A stretch of DNA of 36,178 nt from Streptomycetaceae bacterium (lineage in GTDB: Bacteria > Actinomycetota > Actinomycetes > Streptomycetales > Streptomycetaceae): positions 1-36,178 of the forward strand of contig JAFAUH010000349.1 of the NCBI GenBank assembly GCA_019243445.1, read 5' to 3'. This document shows, one piece after another, positions 1,619-16,411 of this stretch. Within the stretch, counting starts at the first letter, position 1. Each line of letters opens with the position of its first letter. Both the position numbers and the translations under genes were made by a program. Below the pieces are notes generated by a model. That model saw only the letters and a list, made by a program, of their open reading frames with translations. It was not told the origin of the DNA and ran no database searches.

Positions 1619-1789
1619 CCATTTTGGCTGACGGTGTCCGGGGGCCTACCGTTGTACAGCACCCTGCTCCCGTCCGGTCCTCGCACTCGACGCGCCGGAC
1701 ACCAGAGTCGGGTGCTTCGTCTGTCAGACCCGTGCCGTAAGAAAGAAGGGCACGGAACGGGGGTCCGAAGGACCGGAGGAGGTGGGGGC

Positions 1790-4700
1790 GTGAGCCGGCC
1801 CGAGCCTGTGGACGTTCACTGGGACGAGTCACCACCCGGCGGTATGCCGTTTCCCGAGGGAGCGGCCGACCAGGCGCCGGTCAGCCGCTTCCTGCGCGAC
1901 AACGATCGTGTCAACGGCCGTGCCAACAACCGCGATGGTGGCCGTGCCAACAACCGCGATGGTGGCCGTGCCAACGACCGCGACGGCGGCCGTGGCGGCG
2001 GATGGGCCGAGGGCGGCTTCGAACGCGTGCCGCCACAGGATCTCGATGCTGAGCAATCGGTGCTCGGCGGCATGCTGCTCTCCAAGGACGCGATCGCCGA
2101 CGTCGTGGAGGTGCTCAAAGGTGCGGACTTCTACCGCCCCACCCACGAGACCATCTACAACGCCATCCTCGACCTCTACGCGCGAGGCGAGCCCGCCGAC
2201 CCGATCACCCTCGCCGCCGAGCTGACCAAGCGCGGCGAGATCAACCGAGTTGGCGGCGCGTCATATCTGCATACCCTCGTCAACGCGGTCCCCACCGCAG
2301 CCAACGCCGAGTACTACGCGGAGATCGTCCACGAGCGAGCCGTACTGCGCCGTCTCGTCGAGGCCGGCACGCGCATCACCCAGATGGGGTATGCGGCCGA
2401 TGGTGACGTCGACGAGATCGTCAATTCGGCCCAGGCCGAGATCTATGCCGTCACCGAACAGCGCACGTCGGAGGATTACCTTCCGCTCAGCGAGATCATG
2501 GAGGGCGCCCTCGACGAGATCGAGGCGATCGGTTCCCGCAGTGGCCAGATGACCGGCGTTCCGACGGGGTTCACCGATCTCGACGCTCTCACCAACGGCC
2601 TGCATCCTGGCCAGATGATCGTGATTGCCGCCCGCCCCGCCATGGGTAAGGCGCTTGCTCTTGATACTGTGCTCCCCACCCCCACCGGGTGGACCACCAT
2701 GGGCGAGGTGAAGCCCGGTGACTATCTGCTTGACGCGGCGGGGAAGCCGACTCGCGTGATTGCCACGACCGACGTGATGACGGGGCGATCGTGCTACGAG
2801 ATGTCATTCGATGACGGCACGACTGTCGTCGCCGATGCGGATCATCAGTGGGCCACCTGGGACCAGAAGATGTGCGAGGCATACGACTATGCCACGTCGG
2901 ATTCTTCCTCTTACCCGGCCAACTGGCCGTCGTGCTCTCCCTCTCCTTCCTCAGCCTGGCTGTACGCCCCAGGTGAACGCGAGCAGGTGCGCGTGATGCA
3001 CTCCGCTGGACTTTCCACCGCGCACATCGGTGAGCGACTGGGCAGGGCTGCAGAGGCTGTACGGCAGCAGTGGAACCGTCCCGAACTGATGAGCAAGGCG
3101 CTCACTCCGCGCACAACCGTCGAGATTGCGCGCACTCTCTATGCGCGGGGCAGGAAGAACCACGCAATCCCGGCAGCGAAGGCGCTTTCTTGCCAGGAAG
3201 CTGACTTGCTCATCGAGCCTTATGTACTCGGCTATCTCCTCGGAGACGGCAATACGCATGGGAGTGGCCGCGTCGCGTGCGATCCACGAGACCGTGAGTG
3301 GCTGATCAAGGAGTTCGATGCAGCCGGGTACGACACCAGCTTGACCAGCAGCAACGGCCATTTCTCTGTCCATGGTCTGAGGGACGCCTGGCAGTCGCTC
3401 AACTTGCCTGCGGGAAAGCACATTCCTCTTGCCTACCTGCGTGCGTCCTTTGCCCAGCGTCTCGCGCTGGCCCAAGGTTTGATCGACTCGGACGGGTACG
3501 TCGACAGTTATGGTGCCTATCGGTTCACGAACACCAACCGAGTGCTTGTCGATGGTTTCCGTGAGCTGGTCATCACCCTTGGGTGCGTTCCGCGGGTTCG
3601 TTGCCGAACCGGGCGCTCACAGGCAGGAAAGGCCAACGCTGACTCGTGGGAAGTCATCGTGCCGACCAGCCTCCCGCTGACCCGGGTGCCGCGTAAAGCG
3701 TGTTGCGCCCGACAGCAGTGGAAGCGAGAGCAGGTCACAAGGTACATCACCGCTGTCCGGGAGATTGAGAGCGTCCCTGTTCGCTGTGTCCAGGTGGACA
3801 ACCCGGATCACATGTATCTGGCGACTCGGTCGATGGTCCCGACACACAACTCCACCCTCGCACTCGACTTCGCGCGATCATGCTCGATCGCATACGGCCT
3901 GCCCAGCGTCTTCTTCTCGCTTGAAATGGGGCGCAATGAGATCGCCATGCGTCTGCTCTCCGCAGAGGCGCGCGTGGCGCTCCATCACATGCGTTCCGGC
4001 AATATGACCGACGACGACTGGACGCGCCTTGCACGCCGAATGCCGGAGGTCTCGGCGGGCCCGCTCTACATCGACGACTCACCTAATCTGACGATGATGG
4101 AGATCCGTGCCAAGTGCCGTCGGCTGAAGCAGCGCAACGATCTGCGGCTTGTTGTCATCGACTATCTGCAGCTGATGCAGTCCGGCGGATCGCGACGCCC
4201 GGAGAGTCGTCAGCAAGAAGTGTCGGAAATGTCCCGCAACCTCAAGCTGCTCGCCAAAGAGCTCGAGGTGCCGGTCATCGCGCTCTCTCAGCTGAATCGT
4301 GGACCCGAGCAACGCACGGACAAAAAGCCGATGGTCTCGGACTTGCGCGAGTCGGGCTGCGTCTCAGCCGGTACCCGGCTGCTGCGGGCGGACACCGGAG
4401 CTGAGGTGACCATTGGCGAACTGATGAGAGGTGGCGCGCGCGACGTACCAGTGTGGTCGGTGGATGAGCAACTGCGCCTCGTCCCACGGACACTCACCCA
4501 TGCCTTTCCCAGCGGTGTGAAGGAGGTATTCCGGGTACACCTGGCATCCGGGCGTCAGGTTGAGGCGACAGCGAACCACCCGTTCCTCACTCTTGACGGC
4601 TGGAAGCCACTGGGAGAGTTGGTAGGGGGGGACCGGGTCGCGGTACCCCGTCGCATTGCCGCCCCCGCGCAAGTCCAGGCATGGCCTGAAGCCGAGGTCA

Positions 4701-5620
4701 TCATGCTGGCTCACCGGCTCGGAGACGGCTGTGTGGCGCCAGATGGCCAGTGCTCGTACGAGAAGTTCCTGCCCTCTGAGGTATTCGCGTTGCCCGACGA
4801 GCAACTGCGTTTGTTCCTCAGACATTTGTGGGCCACTGACGGCTCGGTGACGGTCTCGAAGACCGGCGTGGTCCGCATCTACTATGCGACGACTTCCCGA
4901 CGCCTGGCTGAGGATCTTCAACAACTGCTGCTGCGTCTCGACCTACGGGCACAGGTGCGTGCAGTCGGAAACTGCAAGGAAAAGCCGGGCTGGACAGTAG
5001 AGGTGTCAGGAGCCGATGACCAACTGATGTTCCTGCGGGACGTAGGCGTCCACGGCCAGCGTGCCGAACATGTACAAGCCGTGCTGCGCTGCCTGGAGTC
5101 CGTCACCGCGAACACCAACCTTGACACCGTGCCGGTTCAGGTCTGGGATCGCGTACATGCCGCGATGACCGACAAGGAATTCACCACCCGAACCTTCCCA
5201 ACAACCCTTGGTGGCAAGTATTGCGGCTCGGCTTTCTCCAAGAGTGCACCAAGCTGCTCCCGACTCGCTCAGGTCGCGGAAATCCTCCAGGACGCGGGGC
5301 TTGAACTCCTCGCGACCAGCGATGTGCTGTGGGATTCGATCACGGCGGTCGAGAGCATTGGTGAACAGGAGGTGTTCGACGCGACGGTCCTGGGCACTCA
5401 CAACTTCATCGCCAACGGCGTCATTCTCCACAACAGCATCGAGCAGGACGCCGATATGGTCATCCTCTTGCATCGCGAGGACGCATACGAAAAGGAGTCA
5501 CCGCGAGCGGGCGAAGCGGATCTCATCGTGGCCAAGCACCGCAACGGCCCTACGGCGACGATCACCGTGGCCTTTCAGGGCCACTACTCGCGCTTTGTGG
5601 ACATGGCCGGGAACGTCTGA
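1790..5620 (+). CDS. dnaB: Replicative DNA helicase DnaB with two inteins
   Basis: The 1276-residue precursor splices to about 517 residues, a normal DnaB size. Extein features: disordered N-terminal tail with an 8-residue repeat (RANNRDGG), the DnaB N domain (PPQDLDAEQSVLGGMLL onward), linker, and RecA-like helicase domain. Intein 1 interrupts Walker A (ARPAMGK^STLALDFA). Walker B-type LRLVVIDYLQLM and the ALSQLNRGPEQR segment follow. Intein 2 interrupts DLRESG^SIEQDADMVILLHR. DnaB is the hexameric 5'-3' fork helicase. The GTG at 1790 is chosen because GGAGGAGG (1775-1782) precedes it; an in-frame start at 1634 has no such site and adds unrelated sequence. The stop lies 2-6 nt before the Tn7-like insertion point. 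Both inteins must splice for function, since each splits a conserved motif of an essential protein. Confidence 0.97.
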   Translation: MSRPEPVDVHWDESPPGGMPFPEGAADQAPVSRFLRDNDRVNGRANNRDGGRANNRDGGRANDRDGGRGGGWAEGGFERVPPQDLDAEQSVLGGMLLSKDAIADVVEVLKGADFYRPTHETIYNAILDLYARGEPADPITLAAELTKRGEINRVGGASYLHTLVNAVPTAANAEYYAEIVHERAVLRRLVEAGTRITQMGYAADGDVDEIVNSAQAEIYAVTEQRTSEDYLPLSEIMEGALDEIEAIGSRSGQMTGVPTGFTDLDALTNGLHPGQMIVIAARPAMGKALALDTVLPTPTGWTTMGEVKPGDYLLDAAGKPTRVIATTDVMTGRSCYEMSFDDGTTVVADADHQWATWDQKMCEAYDYATSDSSSYPANWPSCSPSPSSAWLYAPGEREQVRVMHSAGLSTAHIGERLGRAAEAVRQQWNRPELMSKALTPRTTVEIARTLYARGRKNHAIPAAKALSCQEADLLIEPYVLGYLLGDGNTHGSGRVACDPRDREWLIKEFDAAGYDTSLTSSNGHFSVHGLRDAWQSLNLPAGKHIPLAYLRASFAQRLALAQGLIDSDGYVDSYGAYRFTNTNRVLVDGFRELVITLGCVPRVRCRTGRSQAGKANADSWEVIVPTSLPLTRVPRKACCARQQWKREQVTRYITAVREIESVPVRCVQVDNPDHMYLATRSMVPTHNSTLALDFARSCSIAYGLPSVFFSLEMGRNEIAMRLLSAEARVALHHMRSGNMTDDDWTRLARRMPEVSAGPLYIDDSPNLTMMEIRAKCRRLKQRNDLRLVVIDYLQLMQSGGSRRPESRQQEVSEMSRNLKLLAKELEVPVIALSQLNRGPEQRTDKKPMVSDLRESGCVSAGTRLLRADTGAEVTIGELMRGGARDVPVWSVDEQLRLVPRTLTHAFPSGVKEVFRVHLASGRQVEATANHPFLTLDGWKPLGELVGGDRVAVPRRIAAPAQVQAWPEAEVIMLAHRLGDGCVAPDGQCSYEKFLPSEVFALPDEQLRLFLRHLWATDGSVTVSKTGVVRIYYATTSRRLAEDLQQLLLRLDLRAQVRAVGNCKEKPGWTVEVSGADDQLMFLRDVGVHGQRAEHVQAVLRCLESVTANTNLDTVPVQVWDRVHAAMTDKEFTTRTFPTTLGGKYCGSAFSKSAPSCSRLAQVAEILQDAGLELLATSDVLWDSITAVESIGEQEVFDATVLGTHNFIANGVILHNSIEQDADMVILLHREDAYEKESPRAGEADLIVAKHRNGPTATITVAFQGHYSRFVDMAGNV
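1916..1987 (+). repeat. Three tandem 24-bp repeats in dnaB N-terminal tail
   Basis: Units at 1916-1939 and 1940-1963 are identical; 1964-1987 differs at three positions. They encode RANNRDGG, RANNRDGG and RANDRDGG, a charged, disordered tail ahead of the conserved N domain. Copy number may vary between strains. Confidence 0.9.
2651..3850 (+). mobile_element. DnaB intein 1, class 3 (WCT), with LAGLIDADG homing endonuclease
   Basis: 400 residues (precursor 288-687) inserted after the Lys of Walker A; splicing restores GKST. It starts with Ala (ALALDTVLPTPTGW), not Cys or Ser, and ends VPTHN followed by Ser. It shows the class 3 signature: Trp in block B (DADHQW), Cys in block F (RCVQVDNPDHMYLA) and Thr in block G (VPTHN). 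In class 3 inteins that internal Cys starts splicing through a branched intermediate. The endonuclease domain has both dodecapeptides (LGYLLGDGNTHG and LAQGLIDSDGYVD, about 78 residues apart) plus a helix-turn-helix-like insert (VRVMHSAGLSTAHIGERLG), so homing activity looks possible. Mycobacterial DnaB carries a class 3 intein at this same site. Confidence 0.93.
4358..5434 (+). mobile_element. DnaB intein 2, class 1, with shortened endonuclease domain
   Basis: 359 residues (precursor 857-1215) between DLRESG and SIEQDAD. It begins with Cys (CVSAGTRLLRADTG), has block B ATANHPFLTLDGW with the TxxH pair, block F EVFDATVLGTHNFIANG, and ends VILHN followed by Ser, so all class 1 splicing residues are present. 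In the endonuclease region the two aspartate motifs (LGDG at 4718-4729 and ATDG at 4832-4843) are only about 34 residues apart, against about 78 in intein 1, and the first motif is degenerate (LAHRLGDG). This points to an internal deletion. Splicing is probably intact and homing probably lost. Confidence 0.92.
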
Positions 5621-5818: not shown

Positions 5819-6547
5819 GTGGAGGTCGGGTCGGTCGAAGACGCGACGGTAAGTCACCGTCGCGCCGACGGGGAAGTCGAGGAGGAACGTCCCTGGGGGA
5901 CGGTGGGTGTCTCCGAGCTGTCGCAGGCGGCGCCGTGGCGTACGTTCCGCTGGTACCGCGGGCAGCGGCACTACTCGGGTACGTACTGGTCGGCCACGGT
6001 TGGCGATCATGTGATGTACGAGTCGCGTCTGGAGTTGGCGCGGTTGCTGTTCGCCGACTTCGATCCTTTGGTCCGGCACGTCGCGGCTCAGCCGTTCCTG
6101 GTGAAAGCGCTGGTGCAGGGAAAGATCCGCAAGCACATCCCTGACTACTTGCTGATGACGCGGGAGGGGCCGCTGATCGTCGACGTGAAGCCGAAGCGCC
6201 GGTTGGAAAAACCAGAGGTGGCTTTCACCTTCGCCTGGACGCGGCAGGTCGTGCAGGACCGCGGGTGGCGGTACGAGGTATGGAGCGAACCCGCGCCGGC
6301 GCCGTTGGAGAACGTGCGTTTCCTGGCCGGATACCGCCGTGACTGGCTCTTCCCCGGCGAGCTGCTGGATGCGGTGGAGGCGGCCGTCGTGGACGGGATG
6401 ACGCTCGGCGAGGCTGCGGACCGGGTCGCCGGGTTCGCCCCGGAACTTGCCCGGGCAGGGGTCTTCCACCTGTTGTGGGCGGGGCGGATGATGACGGATC
6501 TTCAGCGGCCGCTGAGTGCCTCGCATGTGCTGCGGAGGGCGGCATGA
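5819..6547 (+). CDS. tnsA: TnsA endonuclease of Tn7-like transposon
   Basis: 242 residues. TnsA cuts the 5' strands at the transposon ends so the element leaves by cut-and-paste together with TnsB. The PD-(D/E)XK-type catalytic set is visible: Glu68 (VMYESRLELARLLF), Asp109 (HIPDYLL) and Lys124 in PLIVDVKPKRR, followed by a C-terminal helical region (about 150-242) of the kind that contacts TnsC. The GTG at 5819 is preferred because CAGGGGG lies about 7 nt upstream; an in-frame GTG at 5771 lacks a ribosome-binding site. The stop overlaps the tnsB start (ATGA), indicating translational coupling. TnsA is separate here, not fused to TnsB. Confidence 0.85.
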   Translation: MEVGSVEDATVSHRRADGEVEEERPWGTVGVSELSQAAPWRTFRWYRGQRHYSGTYWSATVGDHVMYESRLELARLLFADFDPLVRHVAAQPFLVKALVQGKIRKHIPDYLLMTREGPLIVDVKPKRRLEKPEVAFTFAWTRQVVQDRGWRYEVWSEPAPAPLENVRFLAGYRRDWLFPGELLDAVEAAVVDGMTLGEAADRVAGFAPELARAGVFHLLWAGRMMTDLQRPLSASHVLRRAA

Positions 6548-8790
6548 GCGGGGCTGCCACGCGCGTGGGTATCGGCACGCACTTTCGCTACGACGGCGAG
6601 ACCGTCGAGGTGGTGGAGATGGCCGCGACGGCCGCGGGCAACGAGGTGGTGCTCAAGAACGGCCGCGGCCGCCTGCTGCGGGTCAGCTTGAAAGAGCTGC
6701 TCTTCTCCGACCGGGCAGCGATTGTCCCTGTTCAGGGCGGTCCGGGTTCCCAGGACGAAGAGGAGATCGCAGGGGTCGTTCTGGGACGGTTGTCGCAGCC
6801 GCAGCGGCTGCGGGTGATCGAGCGGGCCGAGCACGTGCGGGAGGTGCTGACGGGATTTCGTTCCGGGAACCGCGAACTGGCCCGGCCCGGCGAACCGCGT
6901 CCGCAGTTCGCGCCCGATCTTCCCCTTGATGCCCGTTACGCCGCTAAAGCGGACGAACTCGGCGTCACGGATCGGACAGTGCGACGGTGGGTGGCGGCCT
7001 ATCAGCGAGGCGGTGAGGCGGGGCTGGCTTCGCGGGTGGGGTCGGCGACGTCCGTATCCGAGCGGGCTGATCAGCGGTGGGTGGAGACCGCGCTGGAGGT
7101 GATGGTCGAGCACACCGACGCATCGAAGCCGTCGCGCAAGATGGTGATCGACCGCACAAGGGCCCGTGTCATCGCCCGTTTCGGGCCCGATGCGGTGCAT
7201 CTGCCGAGTCAGGCTGTCGCCTACCGGGTGCTGGCCGAGTTGGAGCGTCGGCACCCGCTGTTTCGGCTCAGTACGAAGCGGAACCGGGACATCGCCGACC
7301 GGCCGGAGGGCCCCTACGGCAAGTTGCGGCCGACGCGGCCGGGCGAGTACCTGCTGATGGATTCCACCCGGCTGGACGTGTTCGCGGTCGACCCGCTGAC
7401 GTTGAAGTGGGTGCAGGCCGAATTGAGTGTCGGTATGGACTGGTTGACCCGCTGCGTCACCGGGATCCGGCTCACTTCGGTCTCCACCAAGTCGGTGGAC
7501 GTGAGCGCGGTCCTCTACCAGGCGTTTCGTCCCCGTCCTGCGGACGAGCGCTGGCCACGGCACGCCGTGTGGCCCGAGCACGGCATCCCCAAGACCGTGC
7601 TGGTCGATGCCGGAGCGGTCGAAGGGCCGGGCCTGGCCCACCCGCCCATCGTCCCCGAGACGCTCGTGGTCGATCACGGCAAGGTCTACGTCTCCGAGCA
7701 CCTGACCAGCGTGTGCCAGCGGATGGGGATCTCCATCCAGCCCGCCCGGCTGCGAACTGGGCGGGATAAGGGGCCAGTTGAGCGGTTTTTCCGAACTTTG
7801 CGCGAGGATCTGCTGCAGGCTCTGCCCGGCTACAAGGGCCCGGACATCCACTCCCGCGGCCAGGACGTGGAGGAGGAAGCGTTCTTCTTCCTTGACGAGC
7901 TGGAGATGATCATTCGCGAGTGGACCGCTGCCGTCTACCACCACCGGCCCCACACCGGGCTCGTCGACCCCACTGTCCCAGGACTTGAGCTGTCGCCTGC
8001 CGCGATGTTCGAGCATGGCATGGCCCGCGCCGGCTACATCGAGGCGCCCAGGGACCCCTACCTGGCCCTGGAGTTCCTCGACACAGAGTGGCGCACGATC
8101 CAGCACTACGGCGTCGAGATCGACGGCCGCCGCTATAACGGTCCGGCCCTTACCCCCTACCGGGGCACGCCGAGCCCCTACCGCGATGCCAAGGACCGAT
8201 GGCCGTTCCAGGCCAACGTCGACGACATCACGAAGATCTACTTCCGCGACCCGAAGACCCGAGCCTGGCACACCCTGACCTGGGAGCACGCTCCCTCGTT
8301 GGAGATGCCGATGAGCCAGGACGCTCTGCGGTTCGCTCGCAGGCTCGCGGTGAAGAAGTACACCTACCCCGATGATCGCCTCGCGGTCGCTGACCTACTG
8401 GAGCGCTGGAAGGTGGGGCTGGGAACCACCTTGGCCGAGCGCCGCATGGCACTGCGGCTCTCCCGTGAGCAGGCCATCGAACTACCCGAGACCGGCGCCG
8501 AGACGGCAGTCACCCTTCCGTCGGTCCGCCGCGCTCTGGGCGAGGCGGAGGCCGAGGGTGTGCCTCTATGTCTTTCGTCAACTTCGCCTTGTCGGTTTTG
8601 TTGGTGGATGTCCGTTCATGCGGCCTCGACTTCGTGCCGTGGTGGTTTCGGGGTGGTGGGTGTGCTGGCGTCGGGGCCGGTGGACGCTCGTCATGCGAGA
8701 GAATCGGTTGTATGGCTACAGCGTCGGCGGGCTCGCCGCGGACCTATGAGGAGTTGCTTGGCGAACTTCATGCCCGTGGGGGCTCGCTGA
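6544..8790 (+). CDS. tnsB: TnsB DDE transposase, C-terminus replaced by an insertion
   Basis: TnsB binds the transposon ends and performs strand cleavage and joining. Visible: an N-terminal region, a helix-turn-helix around residues 130-160 (ELGVTDRTVRRWVAAYQRGG), the rve/DDE core with Asp273 (LLMDSTRLDV), Asp377 (LVVDHGKVY) and Glu413 (GRDKGPVERFFRTL), giving DD(35)E spacing, and a Mu-type C-terminal beta-barrel with WPFQANVDDITKIYF. The ATG at 6544 overlaps the tnsA stop. Native sequence ends near 8559 (ALGEAEAEG). After that the frame runs through IS110 end DNA and the regulator's 5' region to a chance stop at 8790, adding about 76 foreign, Cys/Trp-rich residues. The original last 28 codons lie at 12536-12622. 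DNA cleavage chemistry may survive, but the tail is lost. Confidence 0.88.
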   Translation: MSGAATRVGIGTHFRYDGETVEVVEMAATAAGNEVVLKNGRGRLLRVSLKELLFSDRAAIVPVQGGPGSQDEEEIAGVVLGRLSQPQRLRVIERAEHVREVLTGFRSGNRELARPGEPRPQFAPDLPLDARYAAKADELGVTDRTVRRWVAAYQRGGEAGLASRVGSATSVSERADQRWVETALEVMVEHTDASKPSRKMVIDRTRARVIARFGPDAVHLPSQAVAYRVLAELERRHPLFRLSTKRNRDIADRPEGPYGKLRPTRPGEYLLMDSTRLDVFAVDPLTLKWVQAELSVGMDWLTRCVTGIRLTSVSTKSVDVSAVLYQAFRPRPADERWPRHAVWPEHGIPKTVLVDAGAVEGPGLAHPPIVPETLVVDHGKVYVSEHLTSVCQRMGISIQPARLRTGRDKGPVERFFRTLREDLLQALPGYKGPDIHSRGQDVEEEAFFFLDELEMIIREWTAAVYHHRPHTGLVDPTVPGLELSPAAMFEHGMARAGYIEAPRDPYLALEFLDTEWRTIQHYGVEIDGRRYNGPALTPYRGTPSPYRDAKDRWPFQANVDDITKIYFRDPKTRAWHTLTWEHAPSLEMPMSQDALRFARRLAVKKYTYPDDRLAVADLLERWKVGLGTTLAERRMALRLSREQAIELPETGAETAVTLPSVRRALGEAEAEGVPLCLSSTSPCRFCWWMSVHAASTSCRGGFGVVGVLASGPVDARHARESVVWLQRRRARRGPMRSCLANFMPVGAR
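8560..8640 (-). repeat. IS110-type right-end remnant
   Basis: This stretch resembles the right end of the complete IS110 at 10996-11080. Shared blocks in order: GTGC, CTCT, TTCGTCA, TGT(T)CGGT, TTGGTGGA, and TCATGCGGC, where the last contains the complement of the transposase stop codon. Read on the minus strand, about 15-20 codons upstream end ...HEVEAA-stop, like the C-terminus of an IS110-family transposase. The full copy has an extra short GTTGGTGGA duplication. The rest of this second transposase is missing. Confidence 0.6.
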
Positions 8791-9620
8791 GCCGCTCGCA
8801 GCGCTTGCTGGCCGAGCGGGTCATGGCTGATCCCGAGGGCGTGGCGTTTATGACCATTTCGGAGCTGGCGTCTGCGGTGGGGGTGAACGAGGCCACTGTG
8901 GTGCGGTTCGCCGCCAGCGTGGGGCTTGACGGTTACCCGGGTCTGACCAGGCTCTGCCGGGAGCGGCTCCGTGAGCAGGCGCAGTTGTTGCGTCGGTACG
9001 ACAATCTCGAGCAGTTGGGGGCCGAGGATGGCGATCTGCTGGAGCGCACGGTCTGGTTGGACCGGGCGAACATCACGCGCACTTTCGCTCGTATTACCCC
9101 TGAGTCCTGGGATGCCGCGGTAGGTGTGCTGGCCGAGGCGCCCCGGGTCCATGTCATGGGCTTGCGCAAGTGCCATGCGCCTGCCTATTTGCTCGGCTAC
9201 CTGTTGCGCATGGTGCGTGAGGAGGTCGAGACCGTGACGGCGGGTGCGGGGACCCTCACCGATGAGCTGCGCCGGGTACGGGAGGGCGATTGCTTCGTGG
9301 CTATGGCGGTGCACCGGTACAGCGCGCAGACCGTGCGGGCTGCGGTCTGGGCCCGATCCCGTGGCGCCCGCTGCCTGGCGCTGACCGACAATCCCTCCTC
9401 TGCGCTGGTGCCCTCTGCTGAGCAGGTCTTTTTCGTGGATGCCGCGGGGGCGTCGGTGCTGCGGTCGCTGACCGCCTTTACCGCGCTGGTGCAGGCGCTG
9501 GCGGCCGGGGTGGCCCGGCATCGTGGACAGGATGTGCGGGCGGCTCTGCTGCAGGAGGAGGAGTTGCTGGAGCAGTTCGGCGTTTACGCCACCGACCCGC
9601 GTGATCCGCTCCTTCCCTGA
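8712..9620 (+). CDS. MurR/RpiR family transcriptional regulator
   Basis: 302 residues. An N-terminal HTH_6 domain (about 15-90) contains SQRLLAERVMADPEGVAFMT, ISELASAVGVNEATVVRFA and LDGYPGLTRL. A C-terminal SIS domain (about 135-270) contains RVHVMGLRKCHAPAYLLGYL and CLALTDNPSSAL. RpiR proteins use the SIS domain to sense phosphosugars or related metabolites. The ATG at 8712 is chosen because a GAGAG-type ribosome-binding site precedes it and the HTH homology starts soon after; an in-frame ATG at 8568 lies in IS110 remnant DNA and would add 48 unrelated residues. It converges on the aminotransferase gene and their 3' ends overlap by 37 bp. It may regulate that neighbour, but no shared operator could be defined. 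It lies inside the insertion that splits tnsB. Confidence 0.88.
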   Translation: MATASAGSPRTYEELLGELHARGGSLSRSQRLLAERVMADPEGVAFMTISELASAVGVNEATVVRFAASVGLDGYPGLTRLCRERLREQAQLLRRYDNLEQLGAEDGDLLERTVWLDRANITRTFARITPESWDAAVGVLAEAPRVHVMGLRKCHAPAYLLGYLLRMVREEVETVTAGAGTLTDELRRVREGDCFVAMAVHRYSAQTVRAAVWARSRGARCLALTDNPSSALVPSAEQVFFVDAAGASVLRSLTAFTALVQALAAGVARHRGQDVRAALLQEEELLEQFGVYATDPRDPLLP

Positions 9621-10861
9621 GGTGCTCCGGTCAGTGCGGCGAGCGCACTGCGCAGGTGCTCCAGAGACGCCGCGATCCATGGCAGCGACAGCGGATCGTC
9701 GCTGCGCAGTGCCGTCCAGCGTTCGGCGTCGGACTCCCCGTACAGCAGGCTTGTCGCCACTCGGGCGCGCAGCCCGCGGGCGGTATCCCCGAACGCCTCT
9801 CCGGTCAGCACGCCCACGCCTTGCTGTTCCAGCAGTGTGGCGGCGAGCGCGGAGCCGGTGGTGATGCCCAGCGCTTCCAGGGCCGGACGCATCGGTTCGA
9901 AGTCCGGGTACAGGTAGAAGCCCGCCTCGGGGCGCCGGCACACCGCACCGGCTGTCGTGAAAGTGGCGTGGACCGCGGCGGCGACGCGGGCGTGGAGCCT
10001 TCTGGCGGCGTCGATATGGGACAGGACCTCGGGCGGGTCCTGCAGGATATAGGCGGCCACCGCCTGCATCGGCGCCGCGAGGCTGGACCAGATCTCGCTG
10101 GCCACACCGACGAGCTCGGGCAGCAGACGGCTGCCCCACGGCCCGGTGGGCACCCGGGCGAAGCCGATCCTCCAGCCCCCCAGAGCCATCGACTTGCTCA
10201 ACCCGCTGGTGATGATGGTGCGTTCGGGAAGGTGACGCACCGCCATGGGGGCCGAACCGTGGTGGCACAGCTCCGCGTAGATCTCGTCGCAGACCACCGC
10301 CAGGCCGCTTCGGTCGGCGATCTCGCAGACCGCCCGTAGGTGCTCCGGGCGGCCGATCGTCCCGGTCGGGTTGTCCGGCACCGTCAACACCAAGATGCCC
10401 GGCCGCGCACCGGCCGCCCGTGCCTCGCGCAGCGCCTGCTCCAGCAAGGCGGGATCAGGCACGCCGCCGGCCTGCGCCGGCACGGGCACACTGACGGTCC
10501 GCTTCCCCGCCAGCGCCGCCTGGGCCGCATAACTGACCCAAGCAGGGCACGGCAGCACCACGTCGCCGGGCAGAACAGCGAGCAGCGCGAACAGCAGCGC
10601 CTTGCTGCCCGGCGCGAACAGCACCTGCTCCGCACCGGTCGGCACGCCGCGCCTGCCGAACCAGCCGGCGGCGGCCTCGCGCGCCTGCGCCGACCCGGCG
10701 ACCGGACCGTAGCCATTGCGTCGGGCCGCCGCCGAGAGCGCTGCGGCGACCGGGTCTGGAACCGGCAGGCCCGCCTCGCCGAACCCCAGGTGCAGCACCT
10801 TCTCCCCCGCTGCCCGGCGGGCTTGCAGCGCCTCGTTGATGGCCAAGGTCGCCGAATGCAT
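9584..10861 (-). CDS. PLP-dependent class I/II aminotransferase
   Basis: About 425 residues of fold-type I aminotransferase. Landmarks: LHLGFGEAGLPVPDPV near the start, FAPGSKALLFALLAVLPGDV, the VPDNPTGTIG motif, VVCDEIYAEL (Asp contacting the PLP ring nitrogen), and SGLSKSMALGGWRIGFARVP with the PLP-binding Lys. A C-terminal small domain follows (FYLYPDFEPM...). The family transfers amino groups between amino acids and 2-oxo acids; substrate cannot be told. The ATG at 10861 has a G-rich upstream stretch at suitable distance; a GTG at 10879 would put its AAGGGG almost adjacent, so it is less likely. Convergent with the MurR/RpiR gene. It is accessory cargo, not a homolog of the HisC-like gene at 29618. 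Confidence 0.88.
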   Translation of the reverse strand: MHSATLAINEALQARRAAGEKVLHLGFGEAGLPVPDPVAAALSAAARRNGYGPVAGSAQAREAAAGWFGRRGVPTGAEQVLFAPGSKALLFALLAVLPGDVVLPCPAWVSYAAQAALAGKRTVSVPVPAQAGGVPDPALLEQALREARAAGARPGILVLTVPDNPTGTIGRPEHLRAVCEIADRSGLAVVCDEIYAELCHHGSAPMAVRHLPERTIITSGLSKSMALGGWRIGFARVPTGPWGSRLLPELVGVASEIWSSLAAPMQAVAAYILQDPPEVLSHIDAARRLHARVAAAVHATFTTAGAVCRRPEAGFYLYPDFEPMRPALEALGITTGSALAATLLEQQGVGVLTGEAFGDTARGLRARVATSLLYGESDAERWTALRSDDPLSLPWIAASLEHLRSALAALTGAPQGRSGSRGSVA

Positions 10862-11066
10862 GGTCACCGCGCCCCACACCCCTTACATCCGCGCGAATCA
10901 ACTCAGTTTGCGATATCGAGAGTACATGCAAGTTCATTTGCGGCGCGTGGCAGAGCTGGGATGCGACCATCCGGGCCGGGGCGGCATCGCGCGCAGTGCT
11001 CTGTGACCTTCGTCAGCACTGCCCTGTTCGGTGTGTTGGTGGACGGCTGTGTTGGTGGATGGCCGG

Positions 11067-12278
11067 TCATGCGGCGGCTTCCTCGGGGAGGCGGGATTGG
11101 TAGAAGGCGCCGTCGCGAAGCATGGCGAACAGGACGCTGATGCGCTGGCGGGCGAGGCGCAGGAGAGCTTGGGTGTGGGTCTTGCCGCGGGCTCTTTGCC
11201 GGTCGTAGTAGGTGCGGGAGGCCGGGTCGTGCAAGGCGGCGAACGCGGACAGGAACATCGCACGTTTCAGCTGCCGGTTTCCCGTCCTGGGGGCGTGTTC
11301 GCCGTGGATGGAGGACCCGGAGGACTTCGTCGTCGGGGCCAGGCCGGCGTAGGAGGCCAAGTGGGCTGCGCTGGGAAACGCCGTGCCGCCGCCGACGGTG
11401 ACCAGGAGGACAGCCGCGGTCCTGACGCCGACTCCGGGCATCGAGGTCAGGACCTTCGAAAGAGGGTGCGCCTCCAAAAGTTCGGTGATCTGGGCTTCCA
11501 ACGCCCGTCGTTGCTCGTGGACGGCGGCCAGCGAGCGGGCCAGGGAAGGCACGATGACGTCCAAAGTGGCAGTGCCAGGGACGATGACGGTCTGCTCGTC
11601 GAGCGCGTCGAAGATCTCCCCCACCAAGCGCTCGGCCATGCGCGGGGCTTTGGGCTTTATCAGGCCGACGAGCCGACGGCGTCCAGCCTTGCGCAGGGCG
11701 GCCGGGGAGCCGAAGCGCTCCAGCAGGCAGGTGACGGCCGGGTGGTCCAGGCGGGGACCGAGCACGCGCTCGAGGGAAGGGTGGAATTGGGTGAGCAGGC
11801 CGCGCAGCCGGTTGCTGGTGCGGGTGGCCTCAGCGGCCAGGTCCTCATCGAAGCCGGTGAGCATGGTGAGCTGGGCGGTGGTCTCGTCAGCCAGCTCCAG
11901 GGCGCGCAGGGTGTGCGGCATGGTACGTGCGGCATCCGCGATCACACGGGCGTCGCGGGCATCGGTCTTCGCCTCGCCGGGGTACAGGTCGGCGATCCGG
12001 CGCATCGCCAGCCCGGGCAGATAGGCGACGTGGCAGCCGGCATCCCGGGCAACCGTCAAGGGCAAGGCACCGATCGAGGCGGGTTGGTCAACGATCACCA
12101 GCACCGGGCCGAACTTCGCCCGGAGCTTATCGAACACCGCCCGCAGCTTCGGCTCGCTGTTGGGCAGCCGCTTGTCATAGACGGTCTTGCCCGCCACGGT
12201 CAGAGCGTGGCCGTGGTGGTCGCCTTTGCCGACATCCAGGCCCAGGTAGACTGCGATCTCGCTGGTGTCGATCACCAT
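11067..12278 (-). CDS. IS110-family transposase (DEDD type)
   Basis: 403 residues from the ATG at 12278, which has CGGGGAG just upstream. An N-terminal RuvC-like DEDD domain begins IAVYLGLDVGKGDHHGHAL (first Asp) and includes VLVIVDQPASIGALPL and GEAKTDARDARVIADAAR. A coiled-coil region follows (EQRRALEAQITELLEAHP). The C-terminal Tnp domain has LTSMPGVGVRTAAVLLV and FPSAAHLASYAGLAP, the latter carrying the conserved catalytic Ser, then NRQLKRAMFLSAFAA. The frame is unbroken and of normal length, so the protein is probably active. IS110 enzymes are recombinases guided by an element-encoded bridge RNA that pairs with donor and target DNA. Confidence 0.95.
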   Translation of the reverse strand: MVIDTSEIAVYLGLDVGKGDHHGHALTVAGKTVYDKRLPNSEPKLRAVFDKLRAKFGPVLVIVDQPASIGALPLTVARDAGCHVAYLPGLAMRRIADLYPGEAKTDARDARVIADAARTMPHTLRALELADETTAQLTMLTGFDEDLAAEATRTSNRLRGLLTQFHPSLERVLGPRLDHPAVTCLLERFGSPAALRKAGRRRLVGLIKPKAPRMAERLVGEIFDALDEQTVIVPGTATLDVIVPSLARSLAAVHEQRRALEAQITELLEAHPLSKVLTSMPGVGVRTAAVLLVTVGGGTAFPSAAHLASYAGLAPTTKSSGSSIHGEHAPRTGNRQLKRAMFLSAFAALHDPASRTYYDRQRARGKTHTQALLRLARQRISVLFAMLRDGAFYQSRLPEEAAA

Positions 12279-12535
12279 AACTCCCCGAGAGTGTCCTCGC
12301 GTCCGTCCCGGCCTCGGGGCGTGGCACCGTTCGCGCGCATCCACGTTACGCAGACCTGCCACCCGTGAAACGGCCCGGCGTTACGCCGGTCCAGGTGGCC
12401 GTCAGACCTCTCATCAGCGGTCAATCGGTGCCTCGGGCCCGGCGACACCACACCCTAGGTCATGCGTGCGACATGGGGTCACAGTCATACCGGACCCGGA
12501 GGCCAGGAGCCCCGTTGCGGGGCCAGGAAGAAGGT
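12279..12535 (-). ncRNA. Candidate bridge RNA region of the IS110 element
   Basis: 257 bp between the transposase start and the inferred element end. It has no gene but several hairpins, including CCGGCG-TTA-CGCCGG (12375-12389) and AGCCCCG-TTG-CGGGGC near 12509-12523. In IS110-group elements such as IS621 the bridge RNA is read from this end in the transposase orientation. The exact ends and the target- and donor-binding loops were not derived, so this is a location call based on element architecture. Confidence 0.4.
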
Positions 12536-12622
12536 AACGGGGACGACGACGCCGCGGACTTCGACGACTTGGTGGACGAGGACGATTTCTACGCGACTGC
12601 GCTGAAGGATGTCGATGACTGA
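12536..12622 (+). pseudogene. tnsB: Detached C-terminal 28 codons of tnsB
   Basis: Encodes NGDDDAADFDDLVDEDDF then YATALKDVDD and a TGA that overlaps the likely tnsC start, the arrangement expected for the original tnsB-tnsC junction. It is in frame with the tnsB body if the insertion is removed. The acidic, aromatic-containing tail resembles in character the C-terminal hook by which TnsB proteins touch TnsC. The open frame upstream of it (from an ATG at 12365, or 12473) is IS110 DNA, so a short hybrid peptide carrying the tail is possible but unsupported. Confidence 0.75.
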
Positions 12623-13757
12623 TCGCCGCGACGCTTCGCCTGGGGACGACCTGCGGGCGAAGCTCGATCACCTCACCCTTTCCCGCAAAGAGGGGTTCAA
12701 GCGGCTGGCCGAGGCTTCGCGTCGGCTTCGGCCGGAGCCGTTGTCACGCCGACAGATCAAGGCGCTCGGTGAGGCGGCCCGGCTCGCATACAACCGTCAT
12801 CGGCGCAAGTGGCACGCGAACCTCGGCCCGTTGGACACGCCGCAGATGGCCGCGCTGCACGAGGATCTGTGGGACATCGTCGACAGCAATGACCAGGACG
12901 GTGACAAGGTCAAAGGCGGCATCGCGCTGGACGCCTTCCCTGGTTTAGGCAAGACCACGGCGGTGCTGGCGTTCGCCAAGAAGTTCCACCGCCGGGAGAT
13001 CGCCGAGGCTGGCGAGTTCACCGATGCCGGTTGCGAGCGATGGCCGGTCTGTCGTGTCGGGTTGACCGCGAACACCGGGATGCGTGACTTCAACCGCGCG
13101 ATCCTGGAGTTCTACGGGCATCCGGGGCGCTTTCGTGGCACTGCTTCCGACTTCGGCTACCGGGCTCTGGACTGCGTTTTGTCCTGTGAGGCGAAGCTGC
13201 TGATCGTGGATGACCTGCACTTCCTTCGCTGGAGGAACCGGTCTGGCGTCGAGGTCAGCAACCACTTCAAGTATATCGCGAACGAGTTCCCCGTCACGTT
13301 GCTGTTGATCGGTGTCGGGCTGAAGAGGCGCGGGCTGTTCGACGAGGGCGAGGACTTCGAGGACGCCGTGTTGGCCCAGACCGGACGTCGCACTACCCGG
13401 CTGGGCATGGAACCCTTCACGATCAAGACCGAGGAAGGACGCCGCCACTGGCGGGACATGCTGCTGGCGATCGAACAGCGCGTCGTGCTGGCTGACAAGC
13501 ACCCCGGCATGATCGCGGATGACCTGTCTGACTACCTCTTCGCCCGCAGCACCGGGCACATCGGCTCGTTGATGACGCTGATCAACCGCGGCTGCCAAAA
13601 AGCCGTCCGCACCGGCGCCGAGCGGCTGGACGAGGACTTGCTGAGCACGGTCAAGAACGATGCCGCTTCCGAGGAAGCCCGCCGGGAGCTTGAACTGGCC
13701 TTCGAGACCGGCAAGATGACCAGCCGACCGAAGCCCCGGCGCCGCAAAGCCGCATGA
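12615..13757 (+). CDS. tnsC: TnsC/TniB-type AAA+ ATPase of Tn7-like transposon
   Basis: 380 residues. TnsC polymerises on DNA with ATP and links the target selector (TniQ/TnsD) to TnsA/TnsB. Walker A is FPGLGKTT (Gly110-Thr115), Walker B is KLLIVDDLHFLRWRN (about 195-208), followed by an NHFKYIANEFPVTLLLIGVG segment holding the sensor region and a C-terminal lid helical domain (GHIGSLMTLINRGCQKAV). The ATG at 12615 is preferred because GAAGGA (12603-12608) is 6 nt upstream and it overlaps the tnsB tail stop; an ATG at 12609 sits on that ribosome-binding site. The stop overlaps the tniQ ATG (ATGA). Its former promoter upstream of tnsA is now separated by the 4-kb insertion, so expression may depend on a promoter in the IS110 end. 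Confidence 0.92.
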   Translation: MTDRRDASPGDDLRAKLDHLTLSRKEGFKRLAEASRRLRPEPLSRRQIKALGEAARLAYNRHRRKWHANLGPLDTPQMAALHEDLWDIVDSNDQDGDKVKGGIALDAFPGLGKTTAVLAFAKKFHRREIAEAGEFTDAGCERWPVCRVGLTANTGMRDFNRAILEFYGHPGRFRGTASDFGYRALDCVLSCEAKLLIVDDLHFLRWRNRSGVEVSNHFKYIANEFPVTLLLIGVGLKRRGLFDEGEDFEDAVLAQTGRRTTRLGMEPFTIKTEEGRRHWRDMLLAIEQRVVLADKHPGMIADDLSDYLFARSTGHIGSLMTLINRGCQKAVRTGAERLDEDLLSTVKNDAASEEARRELELAFETGKMTSRPKPRRRKAA

Positions 13758-16411
13758 ACGAGAGCCTGCGGACCCTCCCGGTCAGGGTCGCTCCGCTTCC
13801 CGGAGAGGCTCTGGACTCCTGGCTGGAGGCCCTCGCCCGGCGTCTGCACACCCCGCTGGGTGAGGTGACCCGCAACATCGGGCTGCCGCCTCGGCTTCGA
13901 GCCGGGAACCGGCTGCGGGGCATCCCGCCGGACTGGACGATCCTGCTTCAGCCGCAGCAGGCCGCCGCCCTGTCCGCCACGACCGGCCTGAACGAGGCTC
14001 GCATCCACGCGATGACGCTGCGGCACTACGACCAGCGGGCGGTGAGGATCGACACCGAGCGTCGCCGCGTTCGGCTCACCGTTTTGTGGGGCCGCGGCAG
14101 CGGGTCCCGCTTCTGCCCGGACTGCCTGGCGGAGAACGGCGGGCGCTGGATGCTGTCGTGGCGGCTGGGCTGGGCCTTCGCCTGTCTGCGGCACATGCGG
14201 CTGCTGGCGGACTGCTGCCCGCGCTGCGGGCGCGTCCCCCGCCATCGGCCCCGGAGCCTGCGGTCCGTCCCCGATTCCGGCCGCTGCGGGAACGCACCTT
14301 CCGGCCCGGACAGGCCCTTCACCAGCGGCTGCGGCTTCGACCTGAAACAGACGGATACCCTCCAACTTCCCGCCAGACACCCGGCTCTGACCGCCCAAGC
14401 CCGCTTGATGGGCATCATCGAGACGGGCACGGCCACTTTCGGTTCCTACGCACTCGCTCCGCAACCGTCCACCCTGGCCCTCGCGGACATCCGCGCCATC
14501 AGCGGGCGTGTCCTGTCCACCGCCTCCGGGACCGATCTCACTCGGCTCGCACCAGCGGACATCGCCGAAGCACACCTCAAGCCCAGCGCGGGCTGCACCC
14601 TCGCCGACCGGGCCAGCGAGCGGCCCGGCTTCATGGCGCCGCCCAGAGCCGTGAGCGCCGCGACCGCCGTCACCGCTGCCCTGCAGATCCTGGACACGCC
14701 CGACATCCACCAGGCCGGCAAGGCCATGGGCGTACTGCTGGAGACAATCCGCGAAGAGGGCGACTCACCCGTCAGCCCGGCCTCGCTCAGGAACTGGGGA
14801 CGCGGGCTGAGCCCCGTCCTGACAGCCGTCCACCTCGCAGCCCTGGCCCCATCGTCCCGTCCCAGCGAGCACCTCCGGCACCGCATGCCCGCCCCCGTCC
14901 CCCGGCTGCCGACGGCGACAACCAGGGACATCGCCTACCGGAGCCGAAAGATCCCCAGCATGTTCTGGAGTTCCTGGACGGTCCGGCTCGCGCCGCAGGG
15001 CGGCGTCATCGCCCGCATCCTGGCGCCAGCCCTCGCCGCCTGCCTCCTGATCGTCGACAGCCGCCTGGAGCTCGAGACCGCCACCGGAAATCTCGGGAAT
15101 GTGATCAACGGTGTCGATGTCTCCCGCGTGTTACAGCGGCTCGACAACCAGCCCTGCTGGCCCGACATCGTCACCGCCTTGATCCGGCTCGCCGACCACC
15201 TCGACGCCACCGAGGTCCCCATCGACTACGGACGGCGGCGCGGCCTGGACTACACCCGCCTCCTGCCGGCCGAGCGCTGGCGCACCTTCTGCCGGCGCAC
15301 AGGCACCCCACACGGCACAGGCCGTCGCGAGCGGATCATCCGCTGCCACCTCTTCCACCGCATCAGCGGCCTTCCGATCGAAGCCGCTCCCGGCTACCCC
15401 CGCACAAACAACGACGCCGAGTTCCGGGCTGAATACGCCCGCGCCACAGCCCTGCACACCCCGATGCTGGCCGAAGCGCTCCACGCCGAGGCACAAGCCT
15501 TCCTCGTCGAGCGGCAGATCCACGACGAGCCGGTCACCTGGCAGCCGCCGACGACACTTCTCGCCGGACTCACGCTTCCCGGCCCGGACCCCGACCAGGT
15601 CGACGTCTCCCTCCTGCACCGGCTCGTCCGTCAGAGCCGGCACCCTGTCCAGCACGCTGCCGAAGTCCTCGGCACGAGCGTCGAGACCGTCCGATACCTC
15701 CTCGAAGAACACCCGGCCCCCATGCCCCAGCCGACCGACGCAACGGCCCGAACCCCGGGGCAGATCATCAGCAAGGCCCTGCAGGTCCTGCCGAAGGACA
15801 CCATGGCCCGCCTCTATCTCGGGGAACGACGCTCGCTCGATGAGATCTCCCAGCGAACCGGCTTCTCCCGCCAGGTCCTCCGCCGTCTGATGGACGAGTA
15901 CGACATCCCGGTGCGGAATGGGCCACGGGCTCGGCGTCACGCGCCGGTCGAACGTGCATGGCTCCTCGAGCAGTACGTCCACAGGTGCCGCACCCTGGCC
16001 GACCTGGCCCGCGAGAAGGGCATGAGCCCGGCGAACATGACCCGCTGGGCCCAGCTGCACGACATCCCGCTCCGTCGGCGCGGCGGAGCAAGCCACGGCA
16101 TTACCCTCCGCGTCGCCGAGGAGGCCGCCCACGCCCCTGCCGTCCTGCGCGCGGCTTTCACCAGCACATTCGCTGGGAAGCGTCTTCAACGCTTCTCAGC
16201 AGCGCTGCCCTACCCCACGATCAGGGAAGCCGCGCAGAGCCTTGGCATCAACCCGCAGGTCCTGGTCGCCCAGATCATCCGGCTCGAGAGGGACCTCGGC
16301 CAGCCCCTGATCGAGCGGGCCGAGCGAGGCCGGAGGATGCGACCCACCCCGTTCGGCAGGAGGATCGCCGCGGCAGCACGACAACTCGCTCCGGAACGCG
16401 ACCCCAGATGA
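13754..16411 (+). CDS. tniQ: TniQ/TnsD-type target-site selector, very large, multiple HTH domains
   Basis: 885 residues, against 508 for Tn7 TnsD. The N-terminal TniQ domain starts RTLPVRVAPLPGEALDSWLE and has a zinc-finger array: Cys121, Cys124 (RFCPDC), Cys144, His147 (AFACLRHM), Cys154/155 and Cys158 (CCPRCG). The long remainder carries at least four helix-turn-helix-like units: about 618-655 (HAAEVLGTSVETVRYLLEEH), 690-720 (SLDEISQRTGFSRQVLRRLM), 740-775 (TLADLAREKGMSPANMTRWA) and 813-885 (TIREAAQSLGINPQVLVAQI, then LERDLGQPLIERA), the last like the winged HTH of LysR regulators. It is coupled to tnsC by ATGA. This is the likely reader of the dnaB 3' end. No separate tnsE or second tniQ is visible. 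Confidence 0.88.
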   Translation: MNESLRTLPVRVAPLPGEALDSWLEALARRLHTPLGEVTRNIGLPPRLRAGNRLRGIPPDWTILLQPQQAAALSATTGLNEARIHAMTLRHYDQRAVRIDTERRRVRLTVLWGRGSGSRFCPDCLAENGGRWMLSWRLGWAFACLRHMRLLADCCPRCGRVPRHRPRSLRSVPDSGRCGNAPSGPDRPFTSGCGFDLKQTDTLQLPARHPALTAQARLMGIIETGTATFGSYALAPQPSTLALADIRAISGRVLSTASGTDLTRLAPADIAEAHLKPSAGCTLADRASERPGFMAPPRAVSAATAVTAALQILDTPDIHQAGKAMGVLLETIREEGDSPVSPASLRNWGRGLSPVLTAVHLAALAPSSRPSEHLRHRMPAPVPRLPTATTRDIAYRSRKIPSMFWSSWTVRLAPQGGVIARILAPALAACLLIVDSRLELETATGNLGNVINGVDVSRVLQRLDNQPCWPDIVTALIRLADHLDATEVPIDYGRRRGLDYTRLLPAERWRTFCRRTGTPHGTGRRERIIRCHLFHRISGLPIEAAPGYPRTNNDAEFRAEYARATALHTPMLAEALHAEAQAFLVERQIHDEPVTWQPPTTLLAGLTLPGPDPDQVDVSLLHRLVRQSRHPVQHAAEVLGTSVETVRYLLEEHPAPMPQPTDATARTPGQIISKALQVLPKDTMARLYLGERRSLDEISQRTGFSRQVLRRLMDEYDIPVRNGPRARRHAPVERAWLLEQYVHRCRTLADLAREKGMSPANMTRWAQLHDIPLRRRGGASHGITLRVAEEAAHAPAVLRAAFTSTFAGKRLQRFSAALPYPTIREAAQSLGINPQVLVAQIIRLERDLGQPLIERAERGRRMRPTPFGRRIAAAARQLAPERDPR

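Follow-up and report, generated by a model that had tools for sequence, protein, structure and literature searches.

A putative IS110-family transposable unit with two cargo genes and a displaced right end in a tniA/tnsB-type gene of a Streptomycetaceae bacterium

Background

Elements of the IS110 family lack terminal inverted repeats and employ a bridge RNA; their recombinases are under development as RNA-programmed tools for the insertion of large DNA, while the natural elements have been described as minimal, one-gene insertion sequences (IS). A larger member of the family is the IS117 'minicircle' of Streptomyces coelicolor, which has open reading frames beyond the transposase, none of which is known to form a regulator/aminotransferase pair. 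In other IS families, passengers are found in transporter IS (tIS) and composite transposons, either between the ends of the IS or between two copies that use one end each. Here we analyze a stretch of 36,178 nucleotides from a Streptomycetaceae bacterium (assembly GCA_019243445.1, contig JAFAUH010000349.1, positions 1-36,178; hereafter the window), in which a 3,979-bp block with an IS110 transposase gene, a regulator gene and an aminotransferase gene (positions 8560-12538) interrupts a tniA/tnsB-type transposase gene. We regard it as quite probable that this block is one IS110 transposable unit with the cargo inside, which was inserted via its left end and the outer of two right ends, the distal end being derived from a second IS110 copy.

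The bridge-RNA mechanism of IS110 elements has been published (Durrant 2024, PMC11208160), and mobilisation has been shown for an engineered cargo gene inserted into ISEc11, a member of IS1111, at 46 bp from its end (Siddiquee 2024, PMC11187229). In the open literature searched we found no account of an IS110 element with two natural cargo genes or of passengers as a frequent class in this family, although such an absence is weak evidence. An earlier note on this DNA had called cargo carriage by IS110 little described, which is fair for that literature; the survey presented below reveals, however, that passengers are common in the IS110 subfamily concerned.

Results and discussion

Borders of the block and the interrupted gene

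The block interrupts the tniA/tnsB-type gene after codon 695 and comprises, in the order of the window, the tail of an IS110 right end, a regulator gene of the RpiR type, an aminotransferase gene convergent with it, another right-end tail, which is decayed, the transposase gene (tnp, on the reverse strand) and a non-coding left end; tniA resumes at 12539 and is followed by tniB and tniQ. The 5' part of tniA (6475-8559, forward strand, 695 codons; Pfam domains HTH_23, Mu-transpos_C and rve) has lost its C-terminal tail through the insertion, while its 3' end (12539-12622, forward strand, 27 codons and a stop codon) is in frame with position 8559 once the block is taken out. In-silico removal of 8560-12538 yields GAG GGT GGG GAC GAC, restores the frame and gives the C-terminus EGGDDDAADFDDLVDEDDFYATALKDV, which aligns with uninterrupted homologues (~75% identical, from other genomes of the family) over the pattern E-x-G-D-D-D and an acidic tail that ends in DFYA.AL.DV. 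The reading frame is open on either side of the block, the interrupted gene is undamaged, and the target site of the block reads AGGGTGGGGAC. The placement of the block in tnsB by the earlier note is thereby borne out, as is its start at 8560; the end, given there as 12535, lies at 12538 (at most at 12542, as a run of G leaves a choice). The GGT noted on both sides does not represent a duplicated target: of the two, the left one (8557-8559) belongs to tniA, and the right one (12533-12535) is situated inside the left end (GGTAAC).

The conserved acidic tail of TniA is lost through the insertion; by analogy with TnsB, whose C-terminal tail contacts TnsC, this loss probably silenced the Tn7-like element. 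The TniA/TniB/TniQ (Tn7/Tn5053-like) gene set extends over 6475-16411 of the window, with TniA cut by the block.

The transposase and the two right ends

The transposase gene (11067-12278, reverse strand) is intact and encodes a protein of 403 aa, which was assigned to the 'IS110 family RNA-guided transposase' (NF033542, score: 232.5 bits, cutoff: 140) and comprises the full-length domains DEDD_Tnp_IS110 (PF01548, positions 1-155 of 155) and Transposase_20 (PF02371, positions 2-86 of 87). The ends of the subfamily were fixed with the aid of relatives that are present in 2-5 near-identical copies per genome; the relatives were taken from a family sample of 298 genomes and selected by their similarity to the window transposase (about 70% or more). 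The left end starts with CCCGTTAY, and the right end terminates in TTGACGAAxGACATAGAGGCAC, followed by the target. The several near-identical copies of such relatives suggest that the window element may be mobile as well.

A right end with 0 mismatches to the subfamily motif, TTGACGAAAGACATAGAGGCAC (8560-8581, reverse strand), is found at the very border of the block, and its flank, CACCCT, pairs with the predicted bridge-RNA guide (see below). It belongs to a longer tail (8560-8640, reverse strand), in which the C-terminal codons of another IS110 transposase (ending in EVEAA and a stop codon) are followed by a spacer and the right end. Another right end, CTGACGAAGGTCACAGAGCAC (10996-11016, reverse strand), occupies the usual position after tnp, from whose stop codon it is separated by a spacer (11017-11066, reverse strand) with a 16-bp tandem duplication detected by repeat search; this end is decayed. 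The earlier note had remarked that 8560-8640 resembles 10996-11080, and gapped alignment indeed confirmed that the tails at 8560-~8640 and ~10996-11085 are homologous from the last tnp codons up to the right-end tip (score: 57.5; maximum over 5000 shuffles: 34.5; best match elsewhere in the cargo: 21). Because the homology extends over this whole range, the outer tail has the appearance of a terminal fragment from a second IS110 copy. The outer end is displaced in position, as the earlier note stated, but it is this end that looks functional and not the inner one, which the note had taken for the true end. The inner right end was rejected as a functional end on account of its decayed motif and its mismatch to the guide, and a composite transposon with two whole IS copies was rejected as well, since there is only one transposase and the other side retains merely a tail of ~80 bp.

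The left end and the predicted bridge RNA

The left end (12279-12538, reverse strand) is a non-coding stretch of ~260 nt that holds a predicted bridge RNA, as judged from the alignment of left ends and from a consensus fold with the guides in an internal loop. An alignment of 33 left ends exhibits a single variable stretch within a conserved frame. In the window element, the predicted right target guide region is TAGGGTGTGGTGTCGCC (12441-12457, reverse strand) and the predicted left target guide region is TGTGACCCCATGTCG (12469-12483, reverse strand). In 84 elements, this stretch (the right guide) can pair with the bases immediately beyond the right end at 470 of 504 positions, and shuffled pairs reach at most 432/504 (2000 trials). 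The pairs comprise GGGGGG guides at C runs, AAAAGG at CCTTTT and AAAAAG at CTTTTT; runs of T are the insertion sites of those groups whose guides are rich in A. The left guide, compared with the left flank over 77 elements, follows it with 470 matches (shuffled maximum: 458). Guides of both target halves thus covary with the target flanks, and in this respect the predicted RNA is what is expected of an IS110 element.

The right guide AGGGTG occurs in the window element only, among the 84 elements. Because it matches the junction of the outer right end with tniA (CACCCT) at 6/6 positions and the bases next to the inner right end at only 2/6, the insertion can be attributed to the left end and the outer right end. 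On sequence evidence, these two are the pair that made the insertion, as the earlier note had claimed: the perfect motif and the guide pairing are restricted to the outer end, and the empty site is in frame. The left end and the outer right end thus bound the block as defined ends of an IS110 element, and the regulator and aminotransferase genes lie between tnp and the outer right end, in the manner of a passenger-bearing tIS.

As a separate observation, in two related loci (L061, from genome G001 of the same genus, and L204) the IS110 right end is followed by CGTTA, which resembles the start of a left end and is not the target predicted from the guide.

The cargo gene pair

The regulator of the MurR/RpiR family (8712-9620, forward strand) comprises HTH_6 and SIS domains. 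Its open reading frame starts at 8568, inside the right end, while the likely start is at about 8712, to which the initial ATG of the closest homologue corresponds, with a conserved GCGAGAGAATC upstream. The second gene (9584-10861, reverse strand) encodes a class I/II pyridoxal phosphate-dependent aminotransferase (Aminotran_1_2, E-value 6.5e-51); it is convergent with the regulator gene and overlaps it. The gene content described in the earlier note, i.e. regulator and aminotransferase followed by a full IS110, is therefore correct.

Regulator/aminotransferase pairs are chromosomal genes in Streptomyces, other Streptomycetaceae and many actinobacteria. Among 30 loci from the genome collection, both genes were found near each other in 17 (11 with the same convergent order, an arrangement seen in other Streptomycetaceae, and 5 divergent), and no related IS110 was identified within the fetched flanks of the 30 loci. 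The closest relative of the pair (L111) is 76-81% identical at the DNA level and adjoins a gene that, by eye, resembles a hydantoin or Asp/Glu racemase. As the DNA homology to the nearest chromosomal loci spans about 8695-10887, the captured piece consists of both genes and short upstream stretches. The window's genome contains no second copy of the regulator, and the IS and the cargo are each present there in a single copy.

When read in reverse, the right ends of three relatives (L160, L171 and L191) and of the window element (at 8568) contain a start codon that opens into the cargo (M-G-F-V-K.. or M-S-F-V-N..). The target together with the right end could supply a start codon for passengers on the opposite strand.

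Elsewhere in the window, upstream of the tni genes (1634-5620), a DnaB replicative helicase with a LAGLIDADG-type intein is encoded.

Passengers in related IS110 elements

The distances from the tnp stop codon to the right end cluster mainly in two ranges, one of -1 to 44 bp and one of at least 160 bp, and extra DNA of 0.16-2 kb is present between tnp and the right end in 26 of 79 distinct related transposases; as the set was chosen by transposase similarity, this proportion of one-third holds for the selected relatives only. Mapped on the tree, the trait requires 11 changes, of which 8 are forced by well-supported branches; judged by this tree, extra DNA between tnp and the right end arose several times and passenger carriage recurs in the subfamily. 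The cargo stretch of the window element (2.4 kb) is the largest in the surveyed set.

The passengers encode HEAT-repeat, ankyrin, glyoxalase-fold and zinc-ribbon-like proteins as well as small proteins of no known kind (Pfam: HEAT, ankyrin and glyoxalase matches, for the rest none or weak ones), and a Pfam comparison revealed no function shared among them. Elements with the same passenger occupy unrelated sites in different genomes. In several matched pairs, passenger and transposase are similarly diverged (86.5/86.2%, 95.2/95.4% and 91.2/92.3%, respectively), whereas in other pairs of elements the passenger is more diverged than the transposase. In another genome (G191), an IS110 whose right end is split by a second IS110-type element forms a 2.87-kb unit that is found at four sites, 99.8-100% identical. 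Because of the matched pairs at unrelated sites and this four-site unit, we conclude that elements of the subfamily accommodate extra DNA between tnp and their right end and mobilise it. The cargo of the G191 unit was rejected as a captured host gene, as it is an IS110-type element nested in the right end, and so was that of L154, where a second transposase gene, ISL3-like by eye, was found.

Several further features were observed in the survey. The passengers of the Streptomycetaceae loci L044-L204 are mostly small genes, often on the opposite strand, and closely related IS copies bear different passengers, as if cargo had been exchanged. Locus L019 (480-1240) contains two tandem IS110 elements with a common right-end/left-end junction, and the upstream element exhibits two successive remnants of a transposase C-terminus ahead of a small passenger gene.

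Origin of the composite

We propose that the recombinase and the left-end bridge RNA would recognise the left end and the outer right end, so that everything between them would belong to the unit. The extra right end would most likely stem from another, related copy of IS110 on the far side of the gene pair. That copy would have lost all but its last tnp codons and its right end; the first copy could then have excised and inserted through the distal end, and its proximal right end, no longer used, would have decayed. The right target guide would finally have matched AGGGTG in tniA, upon which the unit would have integrated and cut off the acidic tail of TniA. We infer the two-copy origin of the extra right end from the homologous tails. 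The inner right end was probably out of use before the insertion, as suggested by the several changes and the adjacent 16-bp duplication found there while tniA is undamaged. The regulator and the aminotransferase are thus likely to have moved into tniA together with the IS, rather than to have been gained after the insertion.

Several points weigh against this scenario. The inner right end retains 14 of 22 motif bases, and the motif alone would be at chance level in 2.5 kb, so that the identification of this end rests on the extended tail homology and on its position. The left guide of the window element fits its own left flank at only 5 of 9 positions, mainly in a C run. A clear second right end was sought in other cargo-bearing relatives and none was found above chance; therefore end switching is seen in the window element alone, which is the only one in the surveyed set that still exhibits two right ends. 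The genome is a draft assembly of 414 contigs with an estimated contamination of 4.96%. The earlier note had proposed to look for the same block at other loci, but no second copy of the composite was found in the genome itself, in the 298 family genomes or in the genome collection, and because only this single copy is known, the co-movement of the window's own cargo is not demonstrated. Likewise, no composite came to light when viral contigs were searched for the aminotransferase and phage records for the block, and plasmid records contain either the IS alone or the gene pair alone.

These observations leave some room for a different order of events, in which a plain IS110 (left end, tnp, right end) entered tniA first and the cargo was gained later in place, e.g. 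by homologous recombination between IS110 tails; the cargo would still reside inside a potentially mobile unit, but would have arrived separately from the IS. Two related, diverged tails do flank the cargo and could have served as recombination substrates, no other copy of the composite is known, and the differing passenger types of closely related IS copies indicate that exchange of cargo inside an element seems to happen. We nevertheless consider later gain unlikely: the inner right end is decayed and tniA is not, which fits a gain of cargo before insertion, and the general pattern in the relatives is that of IS and cargo similarly diverged at unrelated sites. An artefact of assembly, by which contigs of different origin were joined into a false composite, appears very improbable to us in spite of the fragmented and somewhat contaminated draft. 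Guide pairing and the open tniA frame account for both outer junctions to the base, which an artefact would not produce; such an error could affect only the junctions inside the block, near 8640 and 10990, and repeat-driven misjoining is unlikely because the IS and the cargo are single-copy in this genome. The least credible explanation is that the gene pair entered tniA alone or via another element and an ordinary IS110 inserted beside it, with the likeness of the outer right end due to chance or to an unrelated remnant. A right-end-like sequence does follow tnp directly, at the usual place, but the outer border coincides exactly with a perfect right end of the family, whose flank pairs with the guide, and removal of the whole block restores the frame; these findings already contradict this explanation. 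The earlier note had named as refuting evidence any genome with the pair in tnsB without the IS: the pair does occur without the IS at other loci, but in none of the tniA homologues examined.

We thus retain insertion as a single unit with its cargo as the preferred explanation for the window. It is conceivable, but to us somewhat doubtful, that bridge-RNA IS110 elements take up host genes on a regular basis, through a switch to a second right end downstream, and so act as natural RNA-guided gene carriers, of which the window would represent an intermediate stage with both ends still visible.

Comparison with known systems

A natural IS110 element that appears to have carried two genes (2.4 kb), together with a survey in which about one-third of the relatives have extra DNA, bears on how much cargo these recombinases tolerate and on where it can be placed, namely between tnp and the right end. 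Right-end switching is suggested as a route of capture, and the elements provide natural, testable pairs of guide and target, one of them with a changed guide. The window element shares with its IS110 subgroup (neighbours annotated as ISSgr1-family, from Streptomyces) the NF033542 recombinase, a long non-coding left end with a guide-bearing bridge RNA, a short right end and a core of ~1.5 kb; it differs from the subgroup in a right end displaced by 2.4 kb, in two host-type genes inside the element, in a decayed second right end and in the right target guide, AGGGTG instead of GGGGGG. In contrast to the tIS and composite transposons of other families, only the right end is left of its second copy. 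With IS621 and other bridge-RNA IS110 elements (PMC11208160) and with the seekRNA elements (PMC11187229) it has in common that the non-coding end holds an RNA with a guide for each target half, left and right; those are, however, natural single-gene elements or laboratory constructs, whereas the cargo in the window is natural.
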